Of a stretch of DNA of 46,982 nucleotides, positions 2,687 through 46,815 are shown piece by piece. The notes beneath the pieces were generated by a model. It saw only the letters and a list, made by a program, of their open reading frames with translations, had not been told where the DNA came from and searched no databases. Position 1 is the first letter of the stretch; every line of letters starts with the position of its first letter. This DNA comes from Chitinophagaceae bacterium (GTDB lineage: Bacteria; Bacteroidota; Bacteroidia; Chitinophagales; Chitinophagaceae): assembly GCA_009885535.1 (NCBI GenBank), contig VFKL01000009.1, positions 1 to 46,982 of the forward strand, in the 5' to 3' direction. The position numbers and the translations under genes were made by a program.

Positions 2687-4210
2687 ATGAGTACACAGCA
2701 TTTGTCGGAACAAGAAATAATCCGTAGAGAAAAGAAAACTGAACTTGAAAATTTAGGCATCGATCCATATCCGGCAGCATTATATCCTGTGAATAGTTCT
2801 GCTGAATTTATTAAAGCAAATTATAAGGGCGAAGAAAACAAAGCAGATTTTGCCGACGTATGTGTTGCAGGCAGAATCATGAGTGTGCGCGATATGGGTA
2901 AAGCCAATTTTGCGGTGATGCAGGATGGTACTGGAAAAATTCAATTTTATATTAAACAAGATGACATTTGCCCCGGCGAAGACAAATCGCTTTTTCAACA
3001 AGTTTGGAAAAAATTAATCGACATCGGCGATTTTGTAGGGATTAAAGGATATGTGTTTACTACAAAAACTGGAGAAACCTCTATCCATGTACGTGAGTTT
3101 ACCATTTTGAGTAAAGCTTTACGTCCTTTGCCGATAGTAAAAGAAAAAGATGGTGAATCATTTGATGAAGTTACTGATCCAGAATTCAGATACAGACAGC
3201 GTTATGCAGATTTAATTGTGAATCCTGGTGTAAAGGAAGTATTTGTAAAACGCACGAAATTCATCAATGCGGTACGTACCTTTTTAAATGATCGCGGTGC
3301 GTTGGAAGTTGATACGCCTGTATTGCAAAGTATTCCTGGTGGCGCAGCAGCTCGTCCTTTCAATACTCATCATAATGCGTTGGACGTGCCCATGTATATG
3401 CGTATTGCCAATGAACTTTATTTGAAAAGATTGATTGTGGGTGGTTTTGAATGGGTGTATGAATTCAGCAGAAACTTCAGAAATGAAGGCATGGATAGAA
3501 CACACAATCCTGAGTTTACAGTTTTAGAATTTTACGTAGCCTATAAAGATTACGAATGGATGATGGATACCACAGAGCAAATGCTGGAACATGCTGCAAT
3601 TGCTGTAAATGGAACGTCTACATGTACGGTTGGTGATAAAGAAATAAGTTTCAAAGCGCCTTTTAAAAGAATAACCATGTATGATGCCATCAAAGAACAT
3701 ACAGGTTTCGATATCAGTGAAATGGATGAAGCTGGCATCAGAGAAGTAGCTGTAAAATTGGGATTACATGCAGATGCGAAATGGGGAAAAGGCAAATTGA
3801 TTGATGAAATTTTTGGCGAAAAATGTGAAGGTCATTACATACAACCTACATTCATTACCGATTATCCGGTGGAAATGAGTCCGCTTACAAAAAAGCACAG
3901 AAGCAAACCCGGATTAGTAGAGCGTTTTGAGTTAATGGTAAACGGTAAAGAAATTGCAAACGCCTATAGCGAGTTAAACGACCCTATCGAACAACGTGAG
4001 CGTTTTGAAGAGCAAGTAAAATTAATGGAGCGAGGCGATGACGAAGCGATGTTTATCGATCACGATTTTTTAAGGGCTTTAGAATATGGCATGCCGCCAA
4101 CAAGTGGTATCGGCTTTGGAATTGATAGAATCTGTATGTTATTGACCAATCAGCATAGCATTCAAGATGTGTTGTTCTTCCCGATGATGAGGCCGGAGAA
4201 TAATGGGTAA
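2687..4210 (+). CDS. lysS: lysyl-tRNA synthetase, class II
   Basis: The protein has 507 residues, the usual length. It charges tRNA-Lys in two steps using ATP. The N-terminal OB-fold anticodon-binding domain spans about residues 55-165. The class II catalytic core shows motif 1 (about 204-225, GALEVDTPVLQ), motif 2 (264-277, FRNEGMDRTHNPEF, with the ATP-contacting arginine) and motif 3 (474-481, GIGFGIDR). No domain is missing. A degenerate -7 element, TACCTTCG, lies at 2653-2660. The stop codon is followed almost at once by a 9-bp tandem array, described separately. Confidence 0.97.
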   Translation: MSTQHLSEQEIIRREKKTELENLGIDPYPAALYPVNSSAEFIKANYKGEENKADFADVCVAGRIMSVRDMGKANFAVMQDGTGKIQFYIKQDDICPGEDKSLFQQVWKKLIDIGDFVGIKGYVFTTKTGETSIHVREFTILSKALRPLPIVKEKDGESFDEVTDPEFRYRQRYADLIVNPGVKEVFVKRTKFINAVRTFLNDRGALEVDTPVLQSIPGGAAARPFNTHHNALDVPMYMRIANELYLKRLIVGGFEWVYEFSRNFRNEGMDRTHNPEFTVLEFYVAYKDYEWMMDTTEQMLEHAAIAVNGTSTCTVGDKEISFKAPFKRITMYDAIKEHTGFDISEMDEAGIREVAVKLGLHADAKWGKGKLIDEIFGEKCEGHYIQPTFITDYPVEMSPLTKKHRSKPGLVERFELMVNGKEIANAYSELNDPIEQRERFEEQVKLMERGDDEAMFIDHDFLRALEYGMPPTSGIGFGIDRICMLLTNQHSIQDVLFFPMMRPENNG

Positions 4211-4215
4211 GTAGA

Positions 4216-4296
4216 GGTTTGTGAGGTTTGAGAGGTTTTTGAAGTTTGAGAGGTTTTTGAAGTTCAAAAGGTTCAATAAGTTCAATGAGTTCAAAA
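4216..4296 (+). repeat. 9-bp tandem array after the lysS stop codon
   Basis: Nine consecutive units of exactly 9 bp start 5 bases after the lysS stop. The first five are of the GGTTTGTGA / GGTTTGAGA / GGTTTTTGA type. The last four are AGTTCAAAA, GGTTCAATA, AGTTCAATG and AGTTCAAAA. The shift from GGTTTG to GGTTCA units keeps the 9-bp phase, so both types belong to one family. The sense strand is G/T-rich and poor in C. Confidence 0.9.
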
Positions 4297-4324
4297 GGTT
4301 GGGATTTTCGTCTGCCGATGAGAA

Positions 4325-4697
4325 GGTTTAAAGCGCTTCGCTAGTTTAACGGTTTAATGGTTGATCGATAATTTGCATTTAATCTCATCCACCTACGGTT
4401 GAAACCGTGGGCTATTAAAATGCAATAACAATTGACAATTCTATAAGGTGGAACGAAATCGTTATTGGCGCCGGTTTCGTTATTGGCGCCGGTTTCCTAA
4501 CCGGTGTCGTACCAGATTTAATTGGATTCAAATCCAATCCAGCATCACGATTATAGTAGAAGGGTTAAAGCGCTTCGCTGGTTTAACGGTTTAATGGTTT
4601 AATGTTTATCGAAAATTTGCATTTAATCTCATCCACCCACGGTTGAAACCGTGGGCTATTGAAAATGTAATAACAATTGGCAATTCTATAATGTGGA
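4325..4697. repeat. two direct copies of a composite ~130-bp intergenic repeat
   Basis: Copy A (4325-4452) and copy B (4562-4697) share the same parts in the same order. First comes a 5' part with AGCGCTTCGCT followed by 8-bp GTTTAACG / GTTTAATG units. Then comes an AT-rich linker ending in a TCTCATCCACC segment, and then a palindrome: 4392-4411 (one mismatch) in A and 4636-4655 (CCCACGGTTGAAACCGTGGG) in B. A tail of the form CAATTGRCAATTCTATAA ends each copy. The palindromic core recurs at 38173-38192, and the 5' part recurs inverted at 5486-5528 and 22027-22074. It resembles REP-type elements, but no REP-associated transposase gene is in the window. Confidence 0.8.
4461..4540. repeat. 18-bp tandem duplication and hairpins between the two composite repeats
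   Basis: The 18-mer GTTATTGGCGCCGGTTTC occurs twice head to tail (4461-4478 and 4479-4496). The second copy runs into a hairpin, CCGGTT-TCCT-AACCGG (4489-4504). A perfect inverted repeat, ATTGGATT-CA-AATCCAAT, follows at 4521-4538. The high GC of this patch stands out from its surroundings. Confidence 0.75.
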
Positions 4698-4821
4698 AAT
4701 AAATCCACTTCCTTATTCTTTATTTTTACTTTCTTATTTGTTATTTTCAAAAAGCTAAATTTAATCTAAATGCTATTCTGTATCCAGAATATTTCTATAG
4801 TTGTAAAGGAAAGAACACTTC

Positions 4822-4839
4822 CAACGCCAAACACCAAAC
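4822..4839 (+). repeat. short (CRCCAAA)n heptamer repeat
   Basis: Two 7-bp units of the CGCCAAA / CACCAAA type follow the word TTCCAA. Longer members of the same family lie at 18796-18886 and 45541-45759. Confidence 0.6.
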
Positions 4840-4870
4840 AAAAAATGAGAATGCTTCTAAATTGAAAACG

Positions 4871-4924
4871 CTTCCAACCTCTCAAACCTCTCAAACCTGA
4901 AAAACCTCATAAACCTCTTAAACC
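4871..4924 (-). repeat. 9-bp tandem array containing the stop codon of the SRPBCC gene
   Basis: Six 9-bp units are seen on the minus strand, reading GGTTTAAGA, GGTTTATGA, GGTTTTTCA, GGTTTGAGA, GGTTTGAGA, GGTTGGAAG. The first unit (4916-4924) encodes the last valine codon and the TAA stop (4918-4920) of the gene that ends here, so coding sequence and array overlap. The array points in the sense direction of that gene. Confidence 0.9.
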
Positions 4925-5385
4925 TTATTATTCATCTCCTCCACCACCTTAAATCTATGATCAAAAATTCCTTTCAATTGTTTTTTTACAAATAGAAAAT
5001 GTGCGATATCGCCTAAAAATCCAAGTGGCAATTTATAATGAACAATATCTGTCATTTCAATGCCTTCGGGTACTTGCTTAAAATGATGTTGGTGATGCCA
5101 CATGGTATATGGTCCAAAACGTTGTTCATCTACAAAATATTTTTTATCCTCAACATGCGATATTTCAGTCATCCAATATAATGGAATACCTAAAACCGGT
5201 TTCACAATGTATTCAATAATTTGACCCGGATACATTTTATCGCCATGGTGTTTGGATACAATTTTAAATCCCAAAGCAGCAGGCGTAATTTTTTGAAGAT
5301 TTTTAGGACTACTAAAAAAATCCCAGGTGGTTTCTATATCCGACTTAATGATTTGTACGGTTTTGATGGAATATACTTTACTCAT
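4918..5385 (-). CDS. SRPBCC/START-fold ligand-binding protein
   Basis: The product is a 155-residue cytoplasmic protein without signal peptide or membrane segments. It has the SRPBCC pattern: an early beta strand (YSIKTVQIIKSD), the helix-grip signature WDFFSSPKNLQKITP near residue 22, then alternating strands and a C-terminal long helix (about 130-150). The family binds hydrophobic ligands in a deep cavity. Close relatives are annotated only as polyketide cyclase-like or ligand-binding SRPBCC proteins, so no substrate can be named. It is encoded alone, convergent to lysS. Its last codon and stop are supplied by a 9-bp repeat unit. Confidence 0.8.
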   Translation of the reverse strand: MSKVYSIKTVQIIKSDIETTWDFFSSPKNLQKITPAALGFKIVSKHHGDKMYPGQIIEYIVKPVLGIPLYWMTEISHVEDKKYFVDEQRFGPYTMWHHQHHFKQVPEGIEMTDIVHYKLPLGFLGDIAHFLFVKKQLKGIFDHRFKVVEEMNNKV

Positions 5386-5485
5386 GCAGAGATAACAAAT
5401 TTGGTAAGGATTTGTTTTGAAATGGGATGAACAAAACTTGAATACGACGAAGAGTGAATAATATAAAATACAAAATACCGATCAA

Positions 5486-5528
5486 CCTTAAACCATTAAA
5501 CCGTTAAACCAGCGTAGCGATTTGAACC
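5486..5528 (-). repeat. 8-bp unit repeat with GCTACGCT hairpin motif
   Basis: On the minus strand this reads GGTTCAAATCGCTACGCT and then GTTTAAC/GTTTAAT units with an 8-bp period. It is the same module as the 5' part of the composite repeats at 4325 and 4562. It lies downstream of the peptide transporter's terminator, in that gene's sense orientation. Confidence 0.7.
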
Positions 5529-18795: not shown

Positions 18796-18886
18796 CAACA
18801 CCAAACACCAAACGCCAAACAATAAACAAATGAAAATGAATAATAGATAGTTGAAGGTTCCAACACCAAACGCCAAACACCAAACA
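18796..18886 (+). repeat. two (CRCCAAA)n heptamer repeats in the gap before paaZ
   Basis: Two tracts (18796-18827 and 18861-18886) of 7-bp units CACCAAA / CGCCAAA are each preceded by AGTTGAAGRTTCCAA. They form a direct repeat about 65 bp apart. The rest of the 326-base gap between the MBL gene and paaZ is AT-rich and holds the hairpin at 18660 and a -7 element at 18956. Confidence 0.75.
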
Positions 18887-18955: not shown

Positions 18956-18963
18956 TACCTTTG
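18956..18963 (+). promoter_or_regulatory. possible -7 element of paaZ
   Basis: TACCTTTG matches TAnnTTTG exactly, 15 bases before the ATG at 18979, implying a very short leader. Confidence 0.45.
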
Positions 18964-18978
18964 AAGCAAAATAAAAAC

Positions 18979-21057
18979 ATGGAAAAACTAGGCAATTTCG
19001 TATTGGGAAAATGGATTGATGGTGATGGCGATGAACAAATTTTATATAATGCAATCAATGGAAACCCCATTGCAACAGCTACTACACAAGGATTGGATTT
19101 TGAATCAATTTTAAATTATGCAAGAGAAAAAGGCAACCCTGCGCTTAGAAAAATGACTTTTCAAGAAAGGGGTAGAATGCTTCGATCTTTGGCATTGCAT
19201 TTAATGGAAAAAAAGGAAAAGTTTTATGCATTAAGTTATCAATCAGGTGCTACCAGAATCGACAGCTGGATTGATATTGAAGGTGGAATTGGCAATCTTT
19301 TTTCTAATGCCTCATTACGTAGAAAATTGCCAGATGAAACATTTGCCATGGATGGAGATGCCATTTCTTTAAGCAAGCAAAATACATTTATTGGTCATCA
19401 CATACTAGTTCCAAAAGAAGGCGCAGCCATTCATATCAACGCATATAATTTTCCAATTTGGGGAATGCTCGAAAAAATCGCCGTTAACTTACTGGCAGGC
19501 GTACCCGCAATTGTGAAACCAGCAACCGTTACTTCTTACCTAACGGAAGCGGTTGTACGCGAAATCATTGCTTCTAATATTTTACCCGATGGCGCCTTAC
19601 AACTATTATGTGGCAGTGCAGGAAATTTACTTAACTATGTAAATTCTCAAGACGTAGTAACTTTCACCGGTTCGGCACAAACCGGATTAATGCTAAAATC
19701 TAATCCGAATATTTTATCTGAATCTGTACCTTTTAATATGGAAGCCGATTCTTTAAACTGTATTGTATTAGGTGAAGATGTTGAGCCAGGCATGGAAGAG
19801 TGGGGTCTTTTTATAAAAGAAGTTAAAAAAGAAATGACGGTTAAAGCCGGACAAAAATGTACCGCCATCAGAAGAATTTTTGTTCCAGAAAATAAAATGG
19901 AAGACGTTTGGAAATCGATTTCTACTGAGCTTGATAAAACAGTTATTGGAAATCCAACAAACGAAAAAGTAAGAATGGGTGCTTTAGCAGGTAACCATCA
20001 ACGTGATGAAGTAAGGGCTCAAGTACAAAAATTGCTGACCACTTCTGAATTGGTTTACGGCTCGATGGATAATGTGGAAGTAATGGATGCTGATTCTAAA
20101 ATAGGGGCATTTATTAGTCCGATGTTGTTGATCAATAAAACGCCTTTTTCATCTGAAGAACCACATAATGTAGAAGCTTTCGGGCCGGTAAGCACCATCA
20201 TGCCGTATAAAAATATTGATGAAGCCATTGAATTAAGCAAAAAAGGAAAAGGTAGTTTGGTTTCGTCTATTGTTACCAGTGATACATCAACTGCAAGAGA
20301 TTATGTATTGGGTGCGGCTAGTTATCATGGTAGAATTTTGGTGTTAAATAGTGAATGTGCAAAAGAGAGTACCGGACATGGATCACCGCTGCCATTATTG
20401 GTTCATGGAGGTCCTGGTCGTGCAGGTGGTGGCGAAGAAATGGGTGGTTTAAGAGGTGTAAAACATTATATGCAACGCACAGCCATTCAAGGTTCACCAA
20501 CCATGATAACGGCAATAAGTAATGTTTACCAAACACATGCCAAAGGCAATGTTGATGGGATTCATCCATTTAAAAAATATTTTGAAGAACTCAGAATTGG
20601 TGATCAAATTGTAACAGAAAAAAGATTGATTACTTCTGAAGACATCACCAAATTTGCCGATTTAAGTGGCGATCATTTTTATGCGCACATGATTGATACT
20701 GATTTTAACGGTACTATGTTTGAAGAACAAGTGGCACATGGTTATTTTATTATGAGCGCTTCTGCCGGTTTGTTTGTAGATAGTTATGATAGAAATCCAG
20801 TGTTGTTGAATTATGGAATTGATGAATTGAGATTTACAAAACCAATGTATGCGGGCGCTTCTTTGTATATTAGATTTACGTGTAAAGAAAAAATTGCACA
20901 AGAATTGAAAGAAGCAAATCCAGATGTGCCCATGGTTAAAGGCGCCGACATTCCAAAAGGTATTGTAAAGTGGTTGGTGGAAATGTTTGACCAAACAGAT
21001 GAAGTAGTTGGTATCGCAACAATTTTAACGATGGTAGAAATGAAAAATAAAATTTAA
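18979..21057 (+). CDS. paaZ: PaaZ: oxepin-CoA hydrolase / semialdehyde dehydrogenase
   Basis: The product is a 692-residue bifunctional enzyme of aerobic phenylacetate breakdown. The C-terminal MaoC-like domain opens the ring of oxepin-CoA, and the N-terminal aldehyde dehydrogenase oxidises the resulting semialdehyde. The dehydrogenase spans about 1-520 with Glu255 (NMEADSLN) and Cys294 (GQKCTA). The hydratase domain (about 535-690) shows Asp561 and His566 (DLSGDH). These positions match the known E. coli active-site residues almost exactly. I start at the ATG at 18979; an upstream TTG at 18961 overlaps the -7 element. The paaABCDE epoxidase genes are not in the window. Confidence 0.93.
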   Translation: MEKLGNFVLGKWIDGDGDEQILYNAINGNPIATATTQGLDFESILNYAREKGNPALRKMTFQERGRMLRSLALHLMEKKEKFYALSYQSGATRIDSWIDIEGGIGNLFSNASLRRKLPDETFAMDGDAISLSKQNTFIGHHILVPKEGAAIHINAYNFPIWGMLEKIAVNLLAGVPAIVKPATVTSYLTEAVVREIIASNILPDGALQLLCGSAGNLLNYVNSQDVVTFTGSAQTGLMLKSNPNILSESVPFNMEADSLNCIVLGEDVEPGMEEWGLFIKEVKKEMTVKAGQKCTAIRRIFVPENKMEDVWKSISTELDKTVIGNPTNEKVRMGALAGNHQRDEVRAQVQKLLTTSELVYGSMDNVEVMDADSKIGAFISPMLLINKTPFSSEEPHNVEAFGPVSTIMPYKNIDEAIELSKKGKGSLVSSIVTSDTSTARDYVLGAASYHGRILVLNSECAKESTGHGSPLPLLVHGGPGRAGGGEEMGGLRGVKHYMQRTAIQGSPTMITAISNVYQTHAKGNVDGIHPFKKYFEELRIGDQIVTEKRLITSEDITKFADLSGDHFYAHMIDTDFNGTMFEEQVAHGYFIMSASAGLFVDSYDRNPVLLNYGIDELRFTKPMYAGASLYIRFTCKEKIAQELKEANPDVPMVKGADIPKGIVKWLVEMFDQTDEVVGIATILTMVEMKNKI

Positions 21058-21837: not shown

Positions 21838-21840
21838 GGA

Positions 21841-21993
21841 GGTTTGAGAGGTTTGAGAGGTTTGTGAGGTTTGTGAGGTTTGTGAGGTTTGAGAGGTTTG
21901 AGAGGTTTGAGAGGTTGGTGAGGTTTGTGAGGTTTGTGAGGTTTGTGAGGTTTGTGAGGTTTGAGAGGTTTGTGAGGTTTGAGAGGTTGGTAG
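21841..21993 (+). repeat. 17-unit 9-bp tandem array after the hydratase stop codon
   Basis: There are 17 consecutive units of exactly 9 bp, starting 3 bases after the TAG stop. They are mainly GGTTTGTGA and GGTTTGAGA, with GGTTGGTGA once and GGTTGGTAG at the end. No insertion or deletion breaks the phase. The sense strand has no C. Both array strands have open reading frames because 9 is a multiple of 3; these are not genes. Confidence 0.95.
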
Positions 21994-22026
21994 GGGTTGA
22001 ATATTTTCAATAAAGGATAATTTCAA

Positions 22027-22074
22027 CCGTTAAACCATTAAACCATTAAACCGTTAAAAAAGCAAAGCGCCTTA
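22027..22074 (-). repeat. 8-bp tandem array abutting the stop of the next glycosyltransferase
   Basis: Four 8-bp units occupy 22027-22058, reading TTTAACGG or TTTAATGG on the minus strand. They are preceded, in minus-strand sense, by GGCGCTTTGCT, which directly follows the TAA stop (22072-22074). The layout matches the modules at 4325, 4562 and 5486. Confidence 0.85.
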
Positions 22075-23067
22075 AGCCGTTGCTGTTTTTGACACCTCGC
22101 TTTCAGAGGGCACGAATACCGTACGTAAAAATTTGGAAATTGATTTTATTATCGAAGCTGTTATCGGACTTGTAGAGATTTCTCTCATTCGAATTTGTAT
22201 GGAAATATCATTTGCAGAATAATTGCCTGTAAACGCATCTATCATTGGCCAAAATGCAAAACTTGCTTTCTTAATTTTATGCTCTTTTTGTTTAAATAGC
22301 ATCATTCCTGAAAAAGCAAAAACAAAAAAGCAATACGATACAAATGCAATTAGTGGATTATTGTATTTCGCTTTTAGTACTTGGTATCTGTTTCGTACAA
22401 AAAAATACATTTTCCATGATGTTTTTAAATCCCACTCTTGGTTAATGCCTATATTTTGTTGTGGATGATATTGAATGCTACTTGTTACTGTTTTTGCAGG
22501 TATATTAAACTTGTTTACAACACGATAAAAATATTCAGACCCTTCGCCCCAATAAAACAAATTTGATTTAGGCAGGCCAGCTTTTTCTATAATTGAACGA
22601 TGAATTAAAGTACCATTAAAGGGTTGACTTATCCCTTCTATAACATCTGTTTTCACATCTTCTAAGCATGAGAAGTTTTTTGTTTTCCAAACAAAAGAAG
22701 TTTTATCTACATTGTTTATCACAACACTATTTAGCAGTTCTACTTTTGGTCCCCTATGCTTAAAAAGCATTTCGAGCGCATCATTTTTCGGACAACTGTC
22801 GTCATCCATACACCAAATAAAATCATAGCCATTTTCATACGCCCATTTCATACCGGTATGATAACCGCCAGCAGGTCCAGCATTATCCTGATACAATTGA
22901 ATGATGTCTGTTTGCTTGTCTAGCCAAACACTGGTGTAATCTGAACTTCCATTATTGACTACTAAAATTGTATTGGGTAATTCTGATTGATTTCTTATTG
23001 CATTTATGCATTCCGCCAATAAAGTATGGCGATTATGTGAAACAATTACGGCGATTATTTTTTCCAT
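22072..23067 (-). CDS. glycosyltransferase family 2
   Basis: The product is a 331-residue GT-A glycosyltransferase. The N-terminal start is VIVSHNR, followed by the nucleotide-sugar region LVVNNGSSD near 35-43 and the DxD metal motif in WCMDDDSCP near 87-95. A C-terminal segment FFVRNRYQVLKAKY near 235-250 and a hydrophobic stretch near 253-273 suggest membrane association. It resembles GlfT2- and rhamnosyltransferase-like enzymes, but the sugar cannot be inferred. It is the last gene, in transcription order, of a minus-strand arm running from rfbB. It follows the acyltransferase after a 135-base gap that holds nothing I recognise. Confidence 0.85.
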   Translation of the reverse strand: MEKIIAVIVSHNRHTLLAECINAIRNQSELPNTILVVNNGSSDYTSVWLDKQTDIIQLYQDNAGPAGGYHTGMKWAYENGYDFIWCMDDDSCPKNDALEMLFKHRGPKVELLNSVVINNVDKTSFVWKTKNFSCLEDVKTDVIEGISQPFNGTLIHRSIIEKAGLPKSNLFYWGEGSEYFYRVVNKFNIPAKTVTSSIQYHPQQNIGINQEWDLKTSWKMYFFVRNRYQVLKAKYNNPLIAFVSYCFFVFAFSGMMLFKQKEHKIKKASFAFWPMIDAFTGNYSANDISIQIRMREISTSPITASIIKSISKFLRTVFVPSESEVSKTATA

Positions 23068-28325: not shown

Positions 28326-29180
28326 ATGAAAATTTGCGCGGTTACCATTTTATTTCACCCAGAAGAATCTGTAAAATATAATGTTTCGAGTTATTTACAT
28401 GCCGTTGATTTAGCCTACATCATAGATAATACAGAAAGTGCAGCAATAAACAATCGTAAATTATTTGAAGGGATAGAAGGAGAAGAGAAAATTGTATTTA
28501 TAAAAAACGAAACCAATGTAGGGATTGGGAAATCTTTAAACATCGCATTTCAAATGGCAGAAGATGCCGGATTTGATTGGATCTTAACCATGGATCAGGA
28601 TTCTAATTTTAATGGAAATGCTTTTTTCGAATTAGCAGCAACAAAATTTAACGATAACAATATCGGAATAATTGGCGCATCAGCACATCAAAATATACCT
28701 TTCAAAAACGGCTTTGATGAACATTTCAACAGCAATCTTTTTTTGATTACTTCCGGGAATCTCGTTCGTATAAATGCTTGGAAAAAAATTGGTGGATATA
28801 ATGAACGATTATTTATTGATGAAGTAGATACAGATTTTTGTTTGAGGTTACAGAAAATGAATTTTCAAATTTTAAGTACTAAAGAAAATTATCTACAACA
28901 TAAATTAGGGAATCAATTCGATGTAAAATTTCCATTTTCTAAAAACGTTTGGCCTATTGGAATCCACGCTCCGTTTAGAATGTATTATATGGCTAGGAAT
29001 GGTTTGTTTATGATTAAGCAATATGCATTTAGCCATCCAAAATATGTGTTATACCGACTAAAAAGTTTCGTAGCAAAATTTTTATTTATCTTATTTTTCT
29101 ACCCCAGTAAATCACGCTACTTAAAAAGTTTTTTTAGTGGGGTGAAAGATTTTGTGGTGGGGAGATTTGGGGGGTTGTAG
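28326..29180 (+). CDS. glycosyltransferase family 2, rhamnosyltransferase-like
   Basis: The 284-residue GT-A enzyme has YIIDNTES near 31-38, NVGIGKSLNIAF near 63-74, the metal motif LTMDQDSNF near 88-96, and IDEVDTDFCLRL near 162-173 with a probable catalytic base. It resembles RfbF-type rhamnosyltransferases. The C-terminal tail has a basic/hydrophobic membrane-associated stretch. The last codons (GRFGGL-stop) lie in G-rich sequence that grades into the 9-bp array, so the C-terminus may have been remodelled by the repeat. Confidence 0.85.
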   Translation: MKICAVTILFHPEESVKYNVSSYLHAVDLAYIIDNTESAAINNRKLFEGIEGEEKIVFIKNETNVGIGKSLNIAFQMAEDAGFDWILTMDQDSNFNGNAFFELAATKFNDNNIGIIGASAHQNIPFKNGFDEHFNSNLFLITSGNLVRINAWKKIGGYNERLFIDEVDTDFCLRLQKMNFQILSTKENYLQHKLGNQFDVKFPFSKNVWPIGIHAPFRMYYMARNGLFMIKQYAFSHPKYVLYRLKSFVAKFLFILFFYPSKSRYLKSFFSGVKDFVVGRFGGL

Positions 29181-29181
29181 G

Positions 29182-29352
29182 GGTTTGAGAGGTTGGTGAG
29201 GTTTAAGAAGTTGGTGAGGTTTATGAGGTTTATGAGGTTGGTGAGGTTGGTGAGGTTTGAGAGGTTTGTGAGGTTTGTGAGGTTTGTGAGGTTTGTGAGG
29301 TTTGAGAGGTTTATGTGGTTTGTGAGGTTTATGAGGTTTGTGAGGTTTGTCA
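29182..29352 (+). repeat. 19-unit 9-bp tandem array after a glycosyltransferase stop codon
   Basis: There are 19 units of exactly 9 bp, starting one base after the TAG stop. They are variants of GGTTTGTGA, GGTTTGAGA, GGTTTATGA and GGTTGGTGA. The 9-bp phase can be followed backward over the last two units of coding sequence (GATTTGGGG, GGTTGTAGG). The sense strand is almost free of C. Confidence 0.95.
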
Positions 29353-29385
29353 AGTTGAAGATGTTTAAAATTTCCAAATTTCCAA

Positions 29386-29501: not shown

Positions 29502-29546
29502 ACTTCCAACTTATTGAACTCATTGAACCTTTTGAACCAATTAAAC
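29502..29546 (-). repeat. 9-bp tandem array containing the stop codon of the leftward glycosyltransferase
   Basis: Five 9-bp units read on the minus strand GTTTAATTG, GTTCAAAAG, GTTCAATGA, GTTCAATAA, GTTGGAAGT. The first unit encodes the final valine and the TAA stop of the gene, exactly as in the array at 4871-4924. The units match the GTTCAA half of the array after lysS. Confidence 0.9.
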
Positions 29547-30440
29547 ATTTTTACACAACATCCAATACCCCTTTACCAAATTCTTCGTTTCTTTCAAATT
29601 TCCTTTTATAAGCAGTTGTAAAAAGCGCATCAAAAATTCTACAGTGAATGTAAAAAATGCAACAGTAAAATAGCCTAGTGTGCTAAAATGTTTTTTGGCA
29701 TATTTCAATCGGCTGCTTAAACTTAAAAATAATCGAAATGCTTTTACAGATGCTGTAGTTCCCATGCCTGTATGTATGGCTTGAATGTGGGAATGGTAAA
29801 ATGATTTTCCACCTGCATTTTTTAAACTCAAAGAAAAATCCAACTCTTCAAAATACACAAAAAAACGTTCGTCAAAATATCCGGCTTTTTCAAATACCGT
29901 ATTACGCATAAACATATAAGCACCCATAACCTGATCCACAAACCTACTTTCCTTATGATCCCAATCTGTCATTAAAGTTGGCGGATGAAATAGTTTTGGC
30001 CATATTTTCGAAAGCCCTAATGAATGATACATAAAATTTATCGTCTTCGGAAATCTTGCACAAGTAGGTGTTACAAGATTGGATTCGTTTAACAATTGGC
30101 AACCTAAAACATCGACATCGTCATGAGCTTCCATATAATCAAAACTAGCAGATATTGTATTTTCCAACAACACAGCATCCGGATTAAGCAACAAAATATA
30201 TTTGGCTTGACTCATTTTAAAACCTTGATTACAAGCACGTGCAAATCCTACATTTTCTGTGTTTTTAATTACTTGAATTTTAGCATTTATTGGGAGCAAA
30301 TACAAAGAATCATCGGTAGAGTTATTGTCGATAACAATTACACTTGTAATTAATTCTGATTGATTGGATTTAAAAATCGATTCAACACATTTTCGTAAAA
30401 AATCATAACTATTCCAATTTACAATTACAATATCTATCAT
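29541..30440 (-). CDS. glycosyltransferase family 2, WbbL-type rhamnosyltransferase
   Basis: The 299-residue GT-A enzyme starts with the WbbL-like pattern IVIVNWNS and continues with VIDNNSTDDS near 36-45, NVGFARACNQGF near 63-74 and LLLNPDAVL near 84-92 as the metal/nucleotide site. FFVYFEELDFSLSLKNAG near 190-207 carries the probable catalytic acid residues and ends near GTTAS. The rfbA/rfbB genes fit a dTDP-sugar donor, so rhamnosyl transfer is plausible but unproven. Its ATG overlaps the polymerase stop by 4 bases (ATGA), which indicates translational coupling. Confidence 0.88.
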   Translation of the reverse strand: MIDIVIVNWNSYDFLRKCVESIFKSNQSELITSVIVIDNNSTDDSLYLLPINAKIQVIKNTENVGFARACNQGFKMSQAKYILLLNPDAVLLENTISASFDYMEAHDDVDVLGCQLLNESNLVTPTCARFPKTINFMYHSLGLSKIWPKLFHPPTLMTDWDHKESRFVDQVMGAYMFMRNTVFEKAGYFDERFFVYFEELDFSLSLKNAGGKSFYHSHIQAIHTGMGTTASVKAFRLFLSLSSRLKYAKKHFSTLGYFTVAFFTFTVEFLMRFLQLLIKGNLKETKNLVKGYWMLCKNV

Positions 30441-31818: not shown

Positions 31819-31846
31819 TTTTGACTTTTTAATTTTGACTTTTTAA
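31819..31846 (-). repeat. 14-bp tandem repeat containing the wzz stop codon
   Basis: Two exact 14-bp units (TTTTGACTTTTTAA on the plus strand) lie head to tail. The TAA stop of the wzz-like gene (31843-31845) is inside the first unit in sense direction. It is another case of a short tandem repeat at a stop codon, but here inside an operon. Confidence 0.75.
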
Positions 31847-32868
31847 TTTGTCCCTTCATTTTGACTCAACCTATTTTTCAGAAAACTAATCCATAAAAGC
31901 AACAACAAAATGGCATTGGCTAAAATGGCAAATATCACCGCAGATTTTATTTTACTAGATTTTATTTTCTCCATAGGATAATCTGCATTGTCTATAATTT
32001 GCAACAATGGAATCTTTTTAATGTATTGATATTTGGCTAGTTCTAAATTTTTGAAAAGTTCTTTATACGCTTCTCCATAAGCCGAAATATTATACTGTTG
32101 CATTTGAGGATTTGCAAGCGCTACAGAAAATGCAGGATTGATATTTGCATCAACATATTGTGCTTTAGACATTAAGCTTGACCCTACATTCTTTTTTAAA
32201 GAATCTACTCGAAGTGCCAAAACATCCACCGTTTCCTTCTCTTTTCTGCTTGTAATTTCTGTATAAAAAATTCCGGCTTCTTCTACCAACCTATCAGTAA
32301 ATACTTTCGAAAATTTTTCGTCATAGCTTGTAATTTGAATCTCGTAAATGCTTAATTTTTTATCCGGTCGTGCTGGATTTATATCTTCCTTCTCCATTTT
32401 TAAATAAATATAATGGAGAATACTATCTTGTAGATAATTCATTTTATCCTTAGTTATTCCCACTGGAAAATCAATACTGGCTAACCTTTCTTTTTTATTT
32501 AATGCTTTTCGAAGTCCTGTTATTTCTAAATAATAAGATGCTAGCGTGTACTTTTTATTGTTAAATATTTCATCGCTCAACAACACTTTTTCAATGATTC
32601 TTCGGCTTTTCATGATTTCGATGATGTTATCTCCATCAAATAAATTACCTGATCCGCCCAATCCATAACCAAACTGTGAAGCGAGGTTGAATGCGCCCGA
32701 CAAACTGTTATCAGAATTGCCTGCGTCTAAAGCAAAACTCAATCTACTTTGAAATTTTGGCTTGGTTAGCATGGCCACAACAAAGCCTGTGGTGCCGGCT
32801 AATACACCCAACGCTACAAATAAGTACCATTTTTTTAACAGCACATTCAAGAAGGAATTTGATTGCAT
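31843..32868 (-). CDS. Wzz-type polysaccharide chain-length regulator
   Basis: The 341-residue protein has the Wzz/PCP layout: an N-terminal membrane helix (about 15-35), a large periplasmic helical domain, and a C-terminal membrane helix (about 310-330) followed by a short cytoplasmic tail. The proximal segment after the first helix (KPKFQSRLSFAL) resembles the conserved Wzz entry. No tyrosine-kinase domain is fused, unlike Wzc. It would set polymer length with the Wzy-like protein. It follows the export gene by about 50 bases, so the two probably share a transcript. Confidence 0.85.
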   Translation of the reverse strand: MQSNSFLNVLLKKWYLFVALGVLAGTTGFVVAMLTKPKFQSRLSFALDAGNSDNSLSGAFNLASQFGYGLGGSGNLFDGDNIIEIMKSRRIIEKVLLSDEIFNNKKYTLASYYLEITGLRKALNKKERLASIDFPVGITKDKMNYLQDSILHYIYLKMEKEDINPARPDKKLSIYEIQITSYDEKFSKVFTDRLVEEAGIFYTEITSRKEKETVDVLALRVDSLKKNVGSSLMSKAQYVDANINPAFSVALANPQMQQYNISAYGEAYKELFKNLELAKYQYIKKIPLLQIIDNADYPMEKIKSSKIKSAVIFAILANAILLLLLWISFLKNRLSQNEGTN

Positions 32869-44509: not shown

Positions 44510-45388
44510 CTACAAATCAGAAATAAATTGCATGACTTCAGTAATGCTTCTTTTAAATGTAACGGGCGGATGGATTTTCTTCTCATAATTTTGTGTAAGT
44601 TGACCTGAAATAATGCAAGGGGTATCTGCAAAATTTTGAGAAATGTTGTTCATGAACTTGTCGAAATTAAAGTTTTGTCCGGGGCGGGTAATATGGCAAT
44701 ATAAATAGTCTGGTTTTTTTACTTTTACTACATATCCAACATCAGCCAAAGGAACATTGCATCCCAAATAAATTACGTTTACGCCTCTATTTTTTAAAAG
44801 GTAGTACATAAATAAAAGGCCTAATTCGTGGTATTCAGCTTCAGGAAGGAAAAGTAAAATTGTTTTATTTGATATTAAAGGGGTAGAAATGCGATCGATT
44901 CCTACAATTAATTTTTGACGAATAATGTTGGTTACCAAATGTTCTTGGGCTGGATTGATGTGGTTTGTTATCCATAGCATACCAATTTTTTCCATGTAGC
45001 TGAAGATGATTTGGGTAATGGTTTTTTCTATCCCTTTTGTTGCGATGTGTGAATCTATCGCTTGAGCAAAATCTTCTGTTTTTAATTCAATCATGTATTT
45101 CACCAGCTCGTTTACAGATTTTTCTTTTTGTGCATCTTGCTGATTAAGATTTAAAATTTTGTCATTGACTTCATCAGCGTTCATTTTATCAATATGCGAT
45201 ATTTTGTATCCATATTTATTGAGTAACGCGATGTTCAAAATCGTTTTTAATTCCTCATTGGAATAATATCTAATATTGGTAAATGTTCTGCTTGGTTTTA
45301 AAAATTGATAGCGTTGCTCCCAAATGCGTAAGGTGTGCGCCTTTACTCCTGATAAATTTTCTAAGTCTTTTATTGTAAATGCATTCAT
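44510..45388 (-). CDS. MerR-family B12-binding regulator, CarH/LitR type
   Basis: The 292-residue protein has an N-terminal MerR helix-turn-helix (about 1-70: TIKDLENLSGVKAHTLRIWEQR) and a C-terminal cobalamin-binding unit. The four-helix B12 cap shows the W-x9-EH motif as W139...E149-H150. The Rossmann-type domain has His187 in the EYHELG variant of DxHxxG, the expected lower axial ligand, and LGCNVP near 208. CarH-type proteins bind adenosylcobalamin, repress in the dark and release DNA in light. All key residues are kept, so a photoreceptor role is likely. It is separated from the sigma gene by 86 bases. Confidence 0.9.
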   Translation of the reverse strand: MNAFTIKDLENLSGVKAHTLRIWEQRYQFLKPSRTFTNIRYYSNEELKTILNIALLNKYGYKISHIDKMNADEVNDKILNLNQQDAQKEKSVNELVKYMIELKTEDFAQAIDSHIATKGIEKTITQIIFSYMEKIGMLWITNHINPAQEHLVTNIIRQKLIVGIDRISTPLISNKTILLFLPEAEYHELGLLFMYYLLKNRGVNVIYLGCNVPLADVGYVVKVKKPDYLYCHITRPGQNFNFDKFMNNISQNFADTPCIISGQLTQNYEKKIHPPVTFKRSITEVMQFISDL

Positions 45389-45430: not shown

Positions 45431-45540
45431 ACTATCAAAATATAATTGGGGATTAAACTTAAAAATAAACGTGATTTTCTGCAGAAATTCTGATGAAATG
45501 AACTTTATATACAAATAAGGGGATGGTAGATTTGTGGTTT

Positions 45541-45759
45541 GTTTGGTGTTTGGGGTTTGGAGTTTGGCGTTGGAAGCATTTTCCATTTTGGAATATTAGA
45601 AACTAAATACTGGTTTAGATTTCATTTCATTTTGATAATTTAACACCAAACGCCAAACACCAAACGTTTTGGATAATTGAAATTGGATGCTTGATGCTGA
45701 AATTGATTTCGTTACAATTGAAGATTTCAACACCAAACACCAAACGCCAAACACCAAAC
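45541..45759. repeat. three heptamer repeat tracts in the merR/phospholipase divergent gap
   Basis: 45541-45575 holds GTTTGGN units with a 7-bp period, the reverse orientation of the family. 45642-45666 and 45728-45759 hold CACCAAA/CGCCAAA units. The last is preceded by TTGAAGATTTCAA, similar to the tracts at 18796. A GGATGCT-TGATGCT stretch at 45685 foreshadows the array at 46767. The rest of this 401-base gap is AT-rich and contains the operator-like sites near merR. Confidence 0.75.
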
Positions 45760-46766: not shown

Positions 46767-46815
46767 GGATGCAGGATTATGGATTATGGATACTTGATGC
46801 TGGATGCTTGATTGC
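46767..46815 (+). repeat. 7-bp tandem array just after the phospholipase-like gene
   Basis: There are seven units of exactly 7 bp (GGATGCA, GGATTAT, GGATTAT, GGATACT, TGATGCT, GGATGCT, TGATTGC), starting 8 bases after the TGA stop, in the sense direction. The intervening bases (GGAGGAA) keep the same phase. Confidence 0.8.

Follow-up and report, generated by a model that had tools for sequence, protein, structure and literature searches.

Why should short tandem repeats begin where genes end, and on one strand? The question arises from the window analysed here, a contig of 46,982 nucleotides (VFKL01000009.1; C203:1-46982 in our numbering) from a 2.57-Mb, 210-contig metagenome-assembled genome (MAG) of a freshwater bacterium of Chitinophagaceae type, hereafter G000. 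The first-pass annotation of this DNA described eight genes with a tandem array adjoining the stop codon, each array reading in the sense direction of its gene, more often than chance would allow, and regarded such arrays as locked to stop codons. All eight arrays were found in the sequence, with small coordinate shifts, and the sense orientation was borne out when stop distance and strand were tested on a sample of the genome, as well as in two relatives. The locking, however, is only half of the rule. The arrays mark gene edges rather than stop codons, and near both ends of a gene their G-rich strand reads 5´ to 3´ out of it. A repeat curiosity has in this way yielded a measurable rule, the outward G-strand at gene edges.

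Polarity of the Arrays at Gene Edges

The sample, covering about a third of the genome, consisted of 80 stretches plus the window, with 790 genes called by our own script, so that start positions are uncertain, and 370 array clusters detected by Tandem Repeats Finder (TRF) at periods up to 30. Eight predicted open reading frames (ORFs) composed mostly of array were dropped prior to counting. A systematic subsample comprised 60 stretches taken by contig number (L009-L068; 586,942 bp). The array families are 9a (GAGGTTTGT), 9b (GGTTCAATA), 8a (GGTTTAAT), 7a (GGTGTTT) and 7b (AAAAAGT/AAAAGTG), together with 8b and 9c; a GGG variant of the unit occurs in two 9a clusters (consensus AAACCTCCC). The counts limited to periods of 6–9 bp (polarity in relatives, start and gene-wise footprints, terminators) miss arrays whose shortest TRF period exceeds 9, including, in some runs, the array behind the gene labelled lysS. 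Some contig ends of the MAG fall within arrays (L020:1, L041:1 and the end of L048), so that arrays may be more numerous than counted.

In the 60 systematic stretches, arrays lying within 12 bp of a stop were all in sense for three families: 9/0 (sense/antisense) of 22 9a arrays, 7/0 of 19 7a arrays and 11/0 of 23 7b arrays, with null means of 1.17/1.19, 1.10/1.07 and 2.28/2.12, respectively (P ≤ 0.0005 in each case). The null placed and oriented each array at random in the same intergenic region, using only arrays flanked by called genes on both sides. Pooled over this 0.59-Mb sample, 27 of the 64 arrays of these families start in sense within 12 bp of a stop and none in antisense. Stop locking was not seen in the same stretches for 9b (1/0 of 17, P 0.34), 8a (0 of 5), 8b (0 of 4) or 9c (0 of 3) taken alone. 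The exceptions over all sampled G000 DNA are one 7a array in antisense at −6 bp, where a contig end adjoins or the other edge is nearer, and a 9c array that is likewise antisense and lies no more than 12 bp from a stop.

At start edges the orientation is reversed, the G-rich strand pointing upstream and out of the gene. When arrays are assigned to their nearest edge, the outward:inward count is 50:0 within 12 bp of a stop and 20:2 at 13–60 bp; for starts it is 9:1 within 12 bp, 10:2 at 13–60 bp and 24:5 beyond 60 bp. The 9a word reads outward 109 times over 419 stop edges versus 41 times over 475 start edges. Moreover, when two arrays of opposite orientation share an intergenic region, they face each other in 40 of 41 cases, the + array standing left of the − array (binomial p 4e-11, with pairs treated as independent). 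The lone non-facing pair involves an 18-mer (window 4459-4496) that was assigned to 9b by the classifier, seemingly in error. With this 18-mer excluded, 9a lies closer to the gene in 13 of the 13 regions where 9a and 9b share an orientation.

A general G-C skew past stop codons was rejected as the cause, since no skew exists outside arrays in the G000 sample: in the first 15 nt past the stop it amounts to −0.05 in non-array DNA versus 0.80 in arrays. Beside 16 tRNAs, eight nearby arrays were found, four in each orientation, although the cases are few.

In the relatives, arrays of periods 6–9 were oriented by G-C skew only. G059 (E1_MAG_00001) has 20 sense and 1 antisense arrays within 12 bp of stops and 10:0 facing pairs, and G011 gives 6:0 at stops and 5:0 at starts within 12 bp, with 3:0 facing pairs. 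Myroides has five oriented short-period arrays, 2:0 at stops.

A Codon Footprint in the Adjoining Coding Sequence

The arrays are accompanied by a change inside the genes. Some 30–40 nt of the adjoining coding sequence (CDS) are shifted from A to G and from C to T on the outward strand, mainly silently. The tests concern stops beside the 9a, 7a and 7b families, and starts with all families pooled. Beside 9a arrays (29 genes), G makes up 41% of the last 15 nt of the CDS versus 18% in 690 other genes, and TAG is the stop codon in 17 of the 29 versus 108 of the 690. Among codons with a third-position purine (NNR) in 38 genes of G000 and G059 with 9a arrays, the G-ending share is 62/76 in codons 1–3 from the stop, 59/71 in codons 4–6 and 62/88 in codons 7–10, falling to 39/101 (codons 11–15), 33/165 (16–25) and 83/530 (26–60). 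The share thus stands at ~0.82 in the final six codons, 0.70 in the next four, 0.39 in codons 11–15 and 0.20–0.16 deeper, while 882 arrayless genes go from 0.22 (3034/13522, codons 26–60) to 0.30 (420/1406, codons 1–3). The 7a footprint (11 genes) amounts to 15/20 in codons 1–3 and 12/18 in codons 4–6, and that of 7b (23 genes) to 22/39 and 20/40. Among codons with a third-position pyrimidine (NNY), C-ending ones drop to 25/207 in the last 10 codons versus 308/952 in codons 21–50. The amino acids are shifted too: beside 9a, Val accounts for 16% of the final 8 residues versus 6%.

Gene by gene, the G-ending NNR share in 79 array-bearing genes is 0.63 in the roughly 10 array-side codons versus 0.23 elsewhere in the same genes. 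It is raised over the gene's own body in 73 of the 79, in 39 of the 43 where the array has no contact with the CDS, and in 26 of the 28 where, in addition, unit-like words are absent; arrayless genes are evenly split (501 up and 502 down of 1007). Copying of the array word into the gene was rejected as the source, as the footprint stays when unit-like words are lacking.

Where an outward-G array lies no more than 20 bp from the start (20 genes), 52/108 NNY codons end in C, versus 1682/5888 in arrayless genes (p 2e-5), and 3/74 NNR codons end in G, versus 919/5267 (p 1e-3), with codons treated as independent. The corresponding counts within 60 bp (35 genes) are 74/188 and 9/134, and the mirror image is absent from the 16 genes whose array, within 60 bp, has the opposite orientation (C-ending NNY 22/74, G-ending NNR 15/78). 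Starts thus show the stop footprint in mirror image, and at either edge it is the outgoing strand that gains G and T. A footprint of this kind was not found in the published titles and opening parts of abstracts searched, a weak absence with subscription journals thinly covered.

Orthologs, Relatives and Taxonomic Spread

The footprint accompanies the array whatever its family. By eye, an array is present at 4 of the 20 orthologous ends of three genes. In gene L026:4415-5305, the array bearers G000, G017 (9a) and G005 (7a-like) share the ending AGT AAG GAG TTG GTG GTG AGT GA; in seven orthologs that lack an array, the codons at this place are mixed or end in A or C. Other Chitinophagaceae MAG loci display the same footprint in most gene ends read. 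For these readings 20 gene ends were looked up in named loci, 4 of which were without an ORF, including the single Paenibacillus array, whose gene was not recovered.

A 31-base 9a array scan of named genomes, which may omit the records of G000 itself, returned 29 stretches: 16 in Chitinophagaceae MAGs, 5 in a Chitinophaga-labelled MAG, 4 in Myroides sp. WP-1 and one each in a Bacteroidales, a Bacteroidetes and a Spartobacteria MAG and in Paenibacillus sp. NFR01. In the first gene call, the 9a-like arrays of two distant taxa, L118:2747-2868 (Paenibacillus sp. NFR01) and L135:1627-1668 (Bacteroidales), lie at a predicted stop and in sense. A 22-base array pattern has 378 overlapping matches in G000 at up to 2 mismatches, and its reversed form has no match there; at up to 1 mismatch, the 22-base 9a pattern was found among 58 relatives only in G017, of the same genus.

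Array Arms, Modules and Turnover

The two arms of a facing pair behave as independent units. They belong to different families in 29 of 40 pairs (11 of the same family versus 9.6 expected), and base pairing between them is no better than between permuted arms (mean −21.4 versus −22.5 kcal/mol, sd 2.1, 40 pairs), so that a hairpin between the arms was rejected. This independence in family and pairing implies that the rule applies to each gene edge and not to a palindromic element.

Ten orthologous regions were compared by eye between G000 and G059, whose 136 matched proteins have a median identity of 91%. Three of them (L175:4757, the right edge of L176:15789, and L185:6513) carry blocks of different families at the same place (7b/9a, 8a/9b+9a and 8a/9a), with the flanks kept and the last codon changed once; the others have the same or a related family. 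No clear gradient of purity runs along the arrays, the proximal half being purer in 13 and the distal half in 16 of 33. Telomere-like growth at the distal end was accordingly rejected: trimmed mismatches per unit are 0.73 proximally and 0.66 distally in these 33 arrays, and a gradient seen before trimming disappeared together with the 9b-like end units. A reverse-transcriptase (telomerase-like) origin was rejected as well. The reverse transcriptase family PF00078 is present in 4 of 10 genomes and was not found in G011, G017, G064, G066 or G067, which have arrays or array-pattern matches, although MAGs may be incomplete. The sole match in G000, L082:260-1501 (−), starts 20 bp away from a 9a array that reads outward; its NCBIfam matches are all below cut-offs.

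Several modules adjoin the arrays. One, around TCGTCTGCCGA, lies past 9a/9b arrays (window 4300-4330; 13 sites in sampled G000 DNA), and several copies run on into TTGGTGTTTTCACCAA, a possible hairpin. Arrays of the 9b, 8a and 7a families can end distally in the tail GGAAGYATTTTCC (27 sites in the same DNA). The palindrome GTAGGGGTTGAATATTTTCAACCCTTAC, presumably GTAG-REP-like (REP, repetitive extragenic palindrome), or variants of it adjoin 9a/9b arrays at L046:15582, L088:4762 and window 21990-22020.

A Possible Mechanism and Its Rivals

A shift from A to G together with C to T, confined to one strand, suggests that this strand is exposed. It is the deamination pattern of exposed strands, as in mitochondrial heavy strands. 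The explanation that we tentatively favour, at less than even confidence and from sequence patterns, is that the strand pointing out of the gene repeatedly becomes single-stranded at gene edges, probably at the point where transcription leaving the gene comes to a halt, and that arrays grow there. Damage to the repeatedly exposed strand would make it G/T-rich, and slippage in the exposed zone could seed and extend arrays of 7–9 bp units up to the first base protected by selection. The likeliest source of exposure would be transcription leaving the gene, with the outgoing RNA polymerase halted in the array and R-loops forming. There the non-template strand would be G-rich, and the units would be about as long as the RNA-DNA hybrid. 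The arrays may then act as outward-facing transcription boundaries that replace intrinsic terminators at these genes.

Outgoing transcription is preferred as the source because terminators are scarce at arrays and stops carry more arrays than starts. Intrinsic terminator-like sites were found in the sample at 3 of 71 array-bearing stops versus 87 of 431 others (shuffled sequence, 3/521), a depletion that is partly due to the array filling the searched space. These counts lend some support to the earlier proposal of a 3´-end RNA signal. A slippage mechanism tied to translation termination, also proposed at first pass, cannot account for both gene edges, as start-edge arrays exist and the footprint is mirrored there. 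A wider version of the favoured explanation, which we consider possible but rather doubtful, would see at gene edges a local, mirror-symmetric 'heavy strand': an A-to-G and C-to-T process on the gene-leaving strand that alters some ten codons at either end of the gene, for the most part silently, is able to provide stop codons and gives rise to tandem arrays of varied units, with the arrays of Xanthomonas and Nostoc as other cases. The trace left in coding sequence can help to tell DNA-level from RNA-level causes. If the process is mutational, a hidden mutation hot zone lies at bacterial gene boundaries; if it is functional, a transcription boundary stands in for hairpin terminators.

Several points weigh against the exposure model. 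Its three steps, exposure, R-loops and termination, are all deduced from sequence. Start-edge arrays require transcription to exit genes backwards, the AAAAGTG family and the T-rich GGTGTTT are not obvious R-loop formers, and the same codon pattern could come from selection for G/T-rich outward strands. Beyond 60 bp from stops the polarity is gone (outward:inward 12:12), and in G011 arrays with periods of 10–30 bp have none at stops (3:4). In post-array DNA only, the terminator comparison becomes 6/68 versus 78/409 (p 0.04). The evidence from codons is likewise qualified, as the p-values at starts assume independent codons, only 4 genes of G011 are testable (3 raised) and the footprint is not clear in Myroides (two genes, with 2/6 and 3/5 codons). 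Furthermore, the footprint appears at stops lacking a detected array where only the other edge has one (93/168) and at arrayless-called stops with G-skewed post-stop DNA (117/202). Some of these are arrays lost to the 6–9-bp period filter, the lysS array included, and some follow other repeats; the footprint therefore tracks G-skewed, repeat-rich edges beyond the detected arrays.

The main rival, which we regard as unlikely, dispenses with transcription altogether. Intergenic breaks or gaps would be resected, leaving 3´ tails that are the outward strand on each side, and damage and slippage during refilling would give the G/T-richness and ratchet the arrays to the gene edges. The mirror symmetry of starts and stops then needs no antisense transcription, and the independence of facing arms in family and pairing fits, as do array blocks that differ between species in some regions while the flanks are kept. 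However, array motifs are commoner at stop edges than at start edges, the terminator depletion has no place in such a scheme, and the purity gradient is not clear. Next in rank, and to us equally improbable, comes a selected RNA signal. Selection on mRNA ends and on translation initiation would here maintain G/U-rich, C-poor tracts that reach from the final codons to the end of the 3´ untranslated region, as well as unstructured A/C-rich leaders ahead of starts, and arrays would be the cheap route to both. The A/C richness at starts and the stop codons within several sense units agree with it, as does the scarcity of intrinsic terminators beside arrays; by eye, the arrayless G004 and G006 have a hairpin plus T-run past the stop of L026:4415-5305. 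Such a signal demands two separate selective reasons that are mirror images by coincidence, 16 of the 20 orthologous ends read lack an array as judged by eye, and a single footprint from three unrelated unit families, with its shift in Val, looks like DNA-level pressure.

The suggestion that the arrays are mobile or copied sequence is supported in part, by modules common to several intergenic regions and by array blocks of different families that in some regions occupy one position in two species. In its developed form, to which we give a still lower probability, dispersed or gene-converted modules (an array with a GGTTGGAAGYATTTTCC tail, GTAG palindromes) would spread between intergenic regions via recombination or a Y1 transposase of the REP-associated tyrosine transposase (RAYT) type, and be tolerated only with the array end toward genes. 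The copy numbers of the two shared motifs and the fixed outward order of 9a then 9b are in its favour, and Y1_Tnp genes occur in 8 of 10 genomes; they were not found in G017 and G067, genomes with array-pattern matches, and a footprint without CDS overlap or unit-like word is not predicted. Neutral survivorship seems very improbable, a reading already weakened. Here arrays would arise anywhere between genes, and sense arrays overrunning a gene end would supply their own stop codons, which antisense arrays mostly do not. The 9a and AAAAAGT units do contain sense stop codons and many such arrays overlap the stop, while the stop-free GGTGTTT arrays nearly all begin past it. Left unexplained are the polarity of GGTGTTT arrays and of arrays 13–60 bp from stops, the polarity at starts and the synonymous footprint.

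Arrays of the Window

The arrays of the window are listed below, after merging overlapping TRF rows. The names of flanking genes are labels of the first-pass annotation, and the lysS-labelled protein is the one that was compared across genomes. It has matches in 35 of 35 genomes, and its G011 ortholog (93% identical protein) carries, by eye, a TTTGGCG-type 7-bp array after the stop, versus the 9-bp array in G000. The distance of 0–8 bases past the stop that had been reported for nearly all of the arrays fails for four that cover the stop or the coding end: 4876-4925 (stop 4918), 29514-29551 (stop 29541), 31819-31849 (stop 31843) and the tract 29125-29350, which begins inside the ORF ending at 29180. 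The final codons of ORF 4918-5385 (−), beside the array at 4876-4925, include AAG GTG GTG GAG GAG ATG. The 14-bp unit at 31819 (sense TTAAAAAGTCAAAA) consists of two AAAAAGT-type heptamers, and its C count equals its G count.

The window also holds arrays away from stops that had been omitted: 4344-4362, 4579-4608, 5484-5511, 18797-18828, 18862-18886, 45540-45571, 45642-45665 and 45729-45759. Where the nearest gene edge is a start, the array is antisense to the gene concerned. An Rfam search of the window gave no match at the gathering score. A 25-bp repeat, AGCTCCGTAGGTGCGAAATAGTAAC, occurs three times at 130-203, and a similar sequence, CTCCATAGGAGCGACATAAC, lies near 29385.

Table 1. Position, strand and gene setting of tandem arrays in the 46,982-nt window.
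Array	Position	Strand	Setting	Basis
9-bp, GAGGTTTGT grading into RAGTTCAAW	4213-4300	+	2 bp past stop of gene labelled lysS	TRF and sequence
9-bp	4876-4925	−	Covers stop (4918) of minus-strand ORF 4918-5385	TRF
9-bp, 16.7 copies	21839-21988	+	1 bp past stop (21837)	TRF
8-bp, sense GGTTTAAT/C	22025-22058	−	13 bp past stop of ORF 22072-23067, behind GGCGCTTTGCT; faces 21839-21988 (+)	TRF
9-bp	29162 (or 29182)-29350	+	At stop (29180) of ORF 28326-29180; tract begins within ORF (29125)	TRF
9-bp, sense GTTCAATRA type (9b)	29508-29551	−	Over stop of ORF 29541-30440; faces 29162-29350	TRF
AAAAAGT-type, TRF period 14	31819-31849	−	Over stop of ORF 31843-32868	TRF and sequence
7-bp GGATGCT, weak	46767-46812	+	8 bp past stop of ORF ending 46758	TRF, 76% matches, score 36
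7-bp (7a)	45729-45759	−	30 bp upstream of called start 45790; G-rich strand points away from gene; start-edge counterpart	
7-bp (7a)	18862-18886	−	74 bp upstream of ORF 18961-21057; G-rich strand points away; second copy 18797-18828	
7-bp (7a)	45540-45571	+	151 bp from start of minus-strand ORF 44510-45388, reads away; faces 45642-45665 and 45729-45759	

Comparison with Known Repeat Systems

Palindromes of the REP type, bacterial interspersed mosaic elements (BIMEs) and RAYT-linked palindromes are abundant, lie near gene ends and form facing pairs. The GTAG palindrome among the modules described here resembles them, whereas the arrays themselves are not palindromic and their arms pair no better than permuted ones. 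The TAACTGA heptamers of Beggiatoaceae, cyanobacteria and some Bacteroidetes are likewise intergenic arrays with a non-random orientation to genes; in the main genome described in the available part of the source, they lie mostly just upstream of starts in forward orientation (PMC4679880), while the start-edge arrays found here read away from the gene. The tandem repeats of Borgs belong to archaeal elements and have perfect units (20, 18 and 21 nt according to the part of the report consulted) that lie within ORFs too (PMC9879509).

The closest precedent is that of the quadruplex heptamers of Xanthomonas and Nostoc, GGGAATC and GGGGA(C/T)T, whose function was left open (Rehm et al. 2015; PMC4692102). 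According to the portion of that paper available to us, most arrays downstream of an ORF are on its coding strand at 0–50 bp from the stop, which some of them overlap, and most upstream arrays are on the non-coding strand, again 0–50 bp away; the two Xanthomonas genomes have 70 and 75 facing pairs, and transcripts begin or end more often at quadruplex-forming repeats, whichever strand is transcribed (PMC4692102). The first-pass annotation knew of heptamer repeats in cyanobacteria but of none locked to stop codons; this geometry brings the precedent nearer than it supposed. The likeness extends to all three features, coding strand past stops, non-coding strand before starts and facing pairs. 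The 7-bp unit length agrees for 7a and 7b and differs for 9a. The same portion describes one quadruplex heptamer type per genome at comparatively conserved places and mentions neither a codon footprint nor terminator depletion (PMC4692102), whereas unrelated 7- and 9-bp units coexist in one genome here, with both features. Moreover, G-runs of three or more are lacking from the main units of G000, which have at most GG, and single Gs in 7b; this suggests that quadruplex formation is dispensable for the geometry reported in 2015. That geometry was already known for quadruplex heptamers, and the additions made here are its occurrence with other 7- and 9-bp units and the codon footprint.

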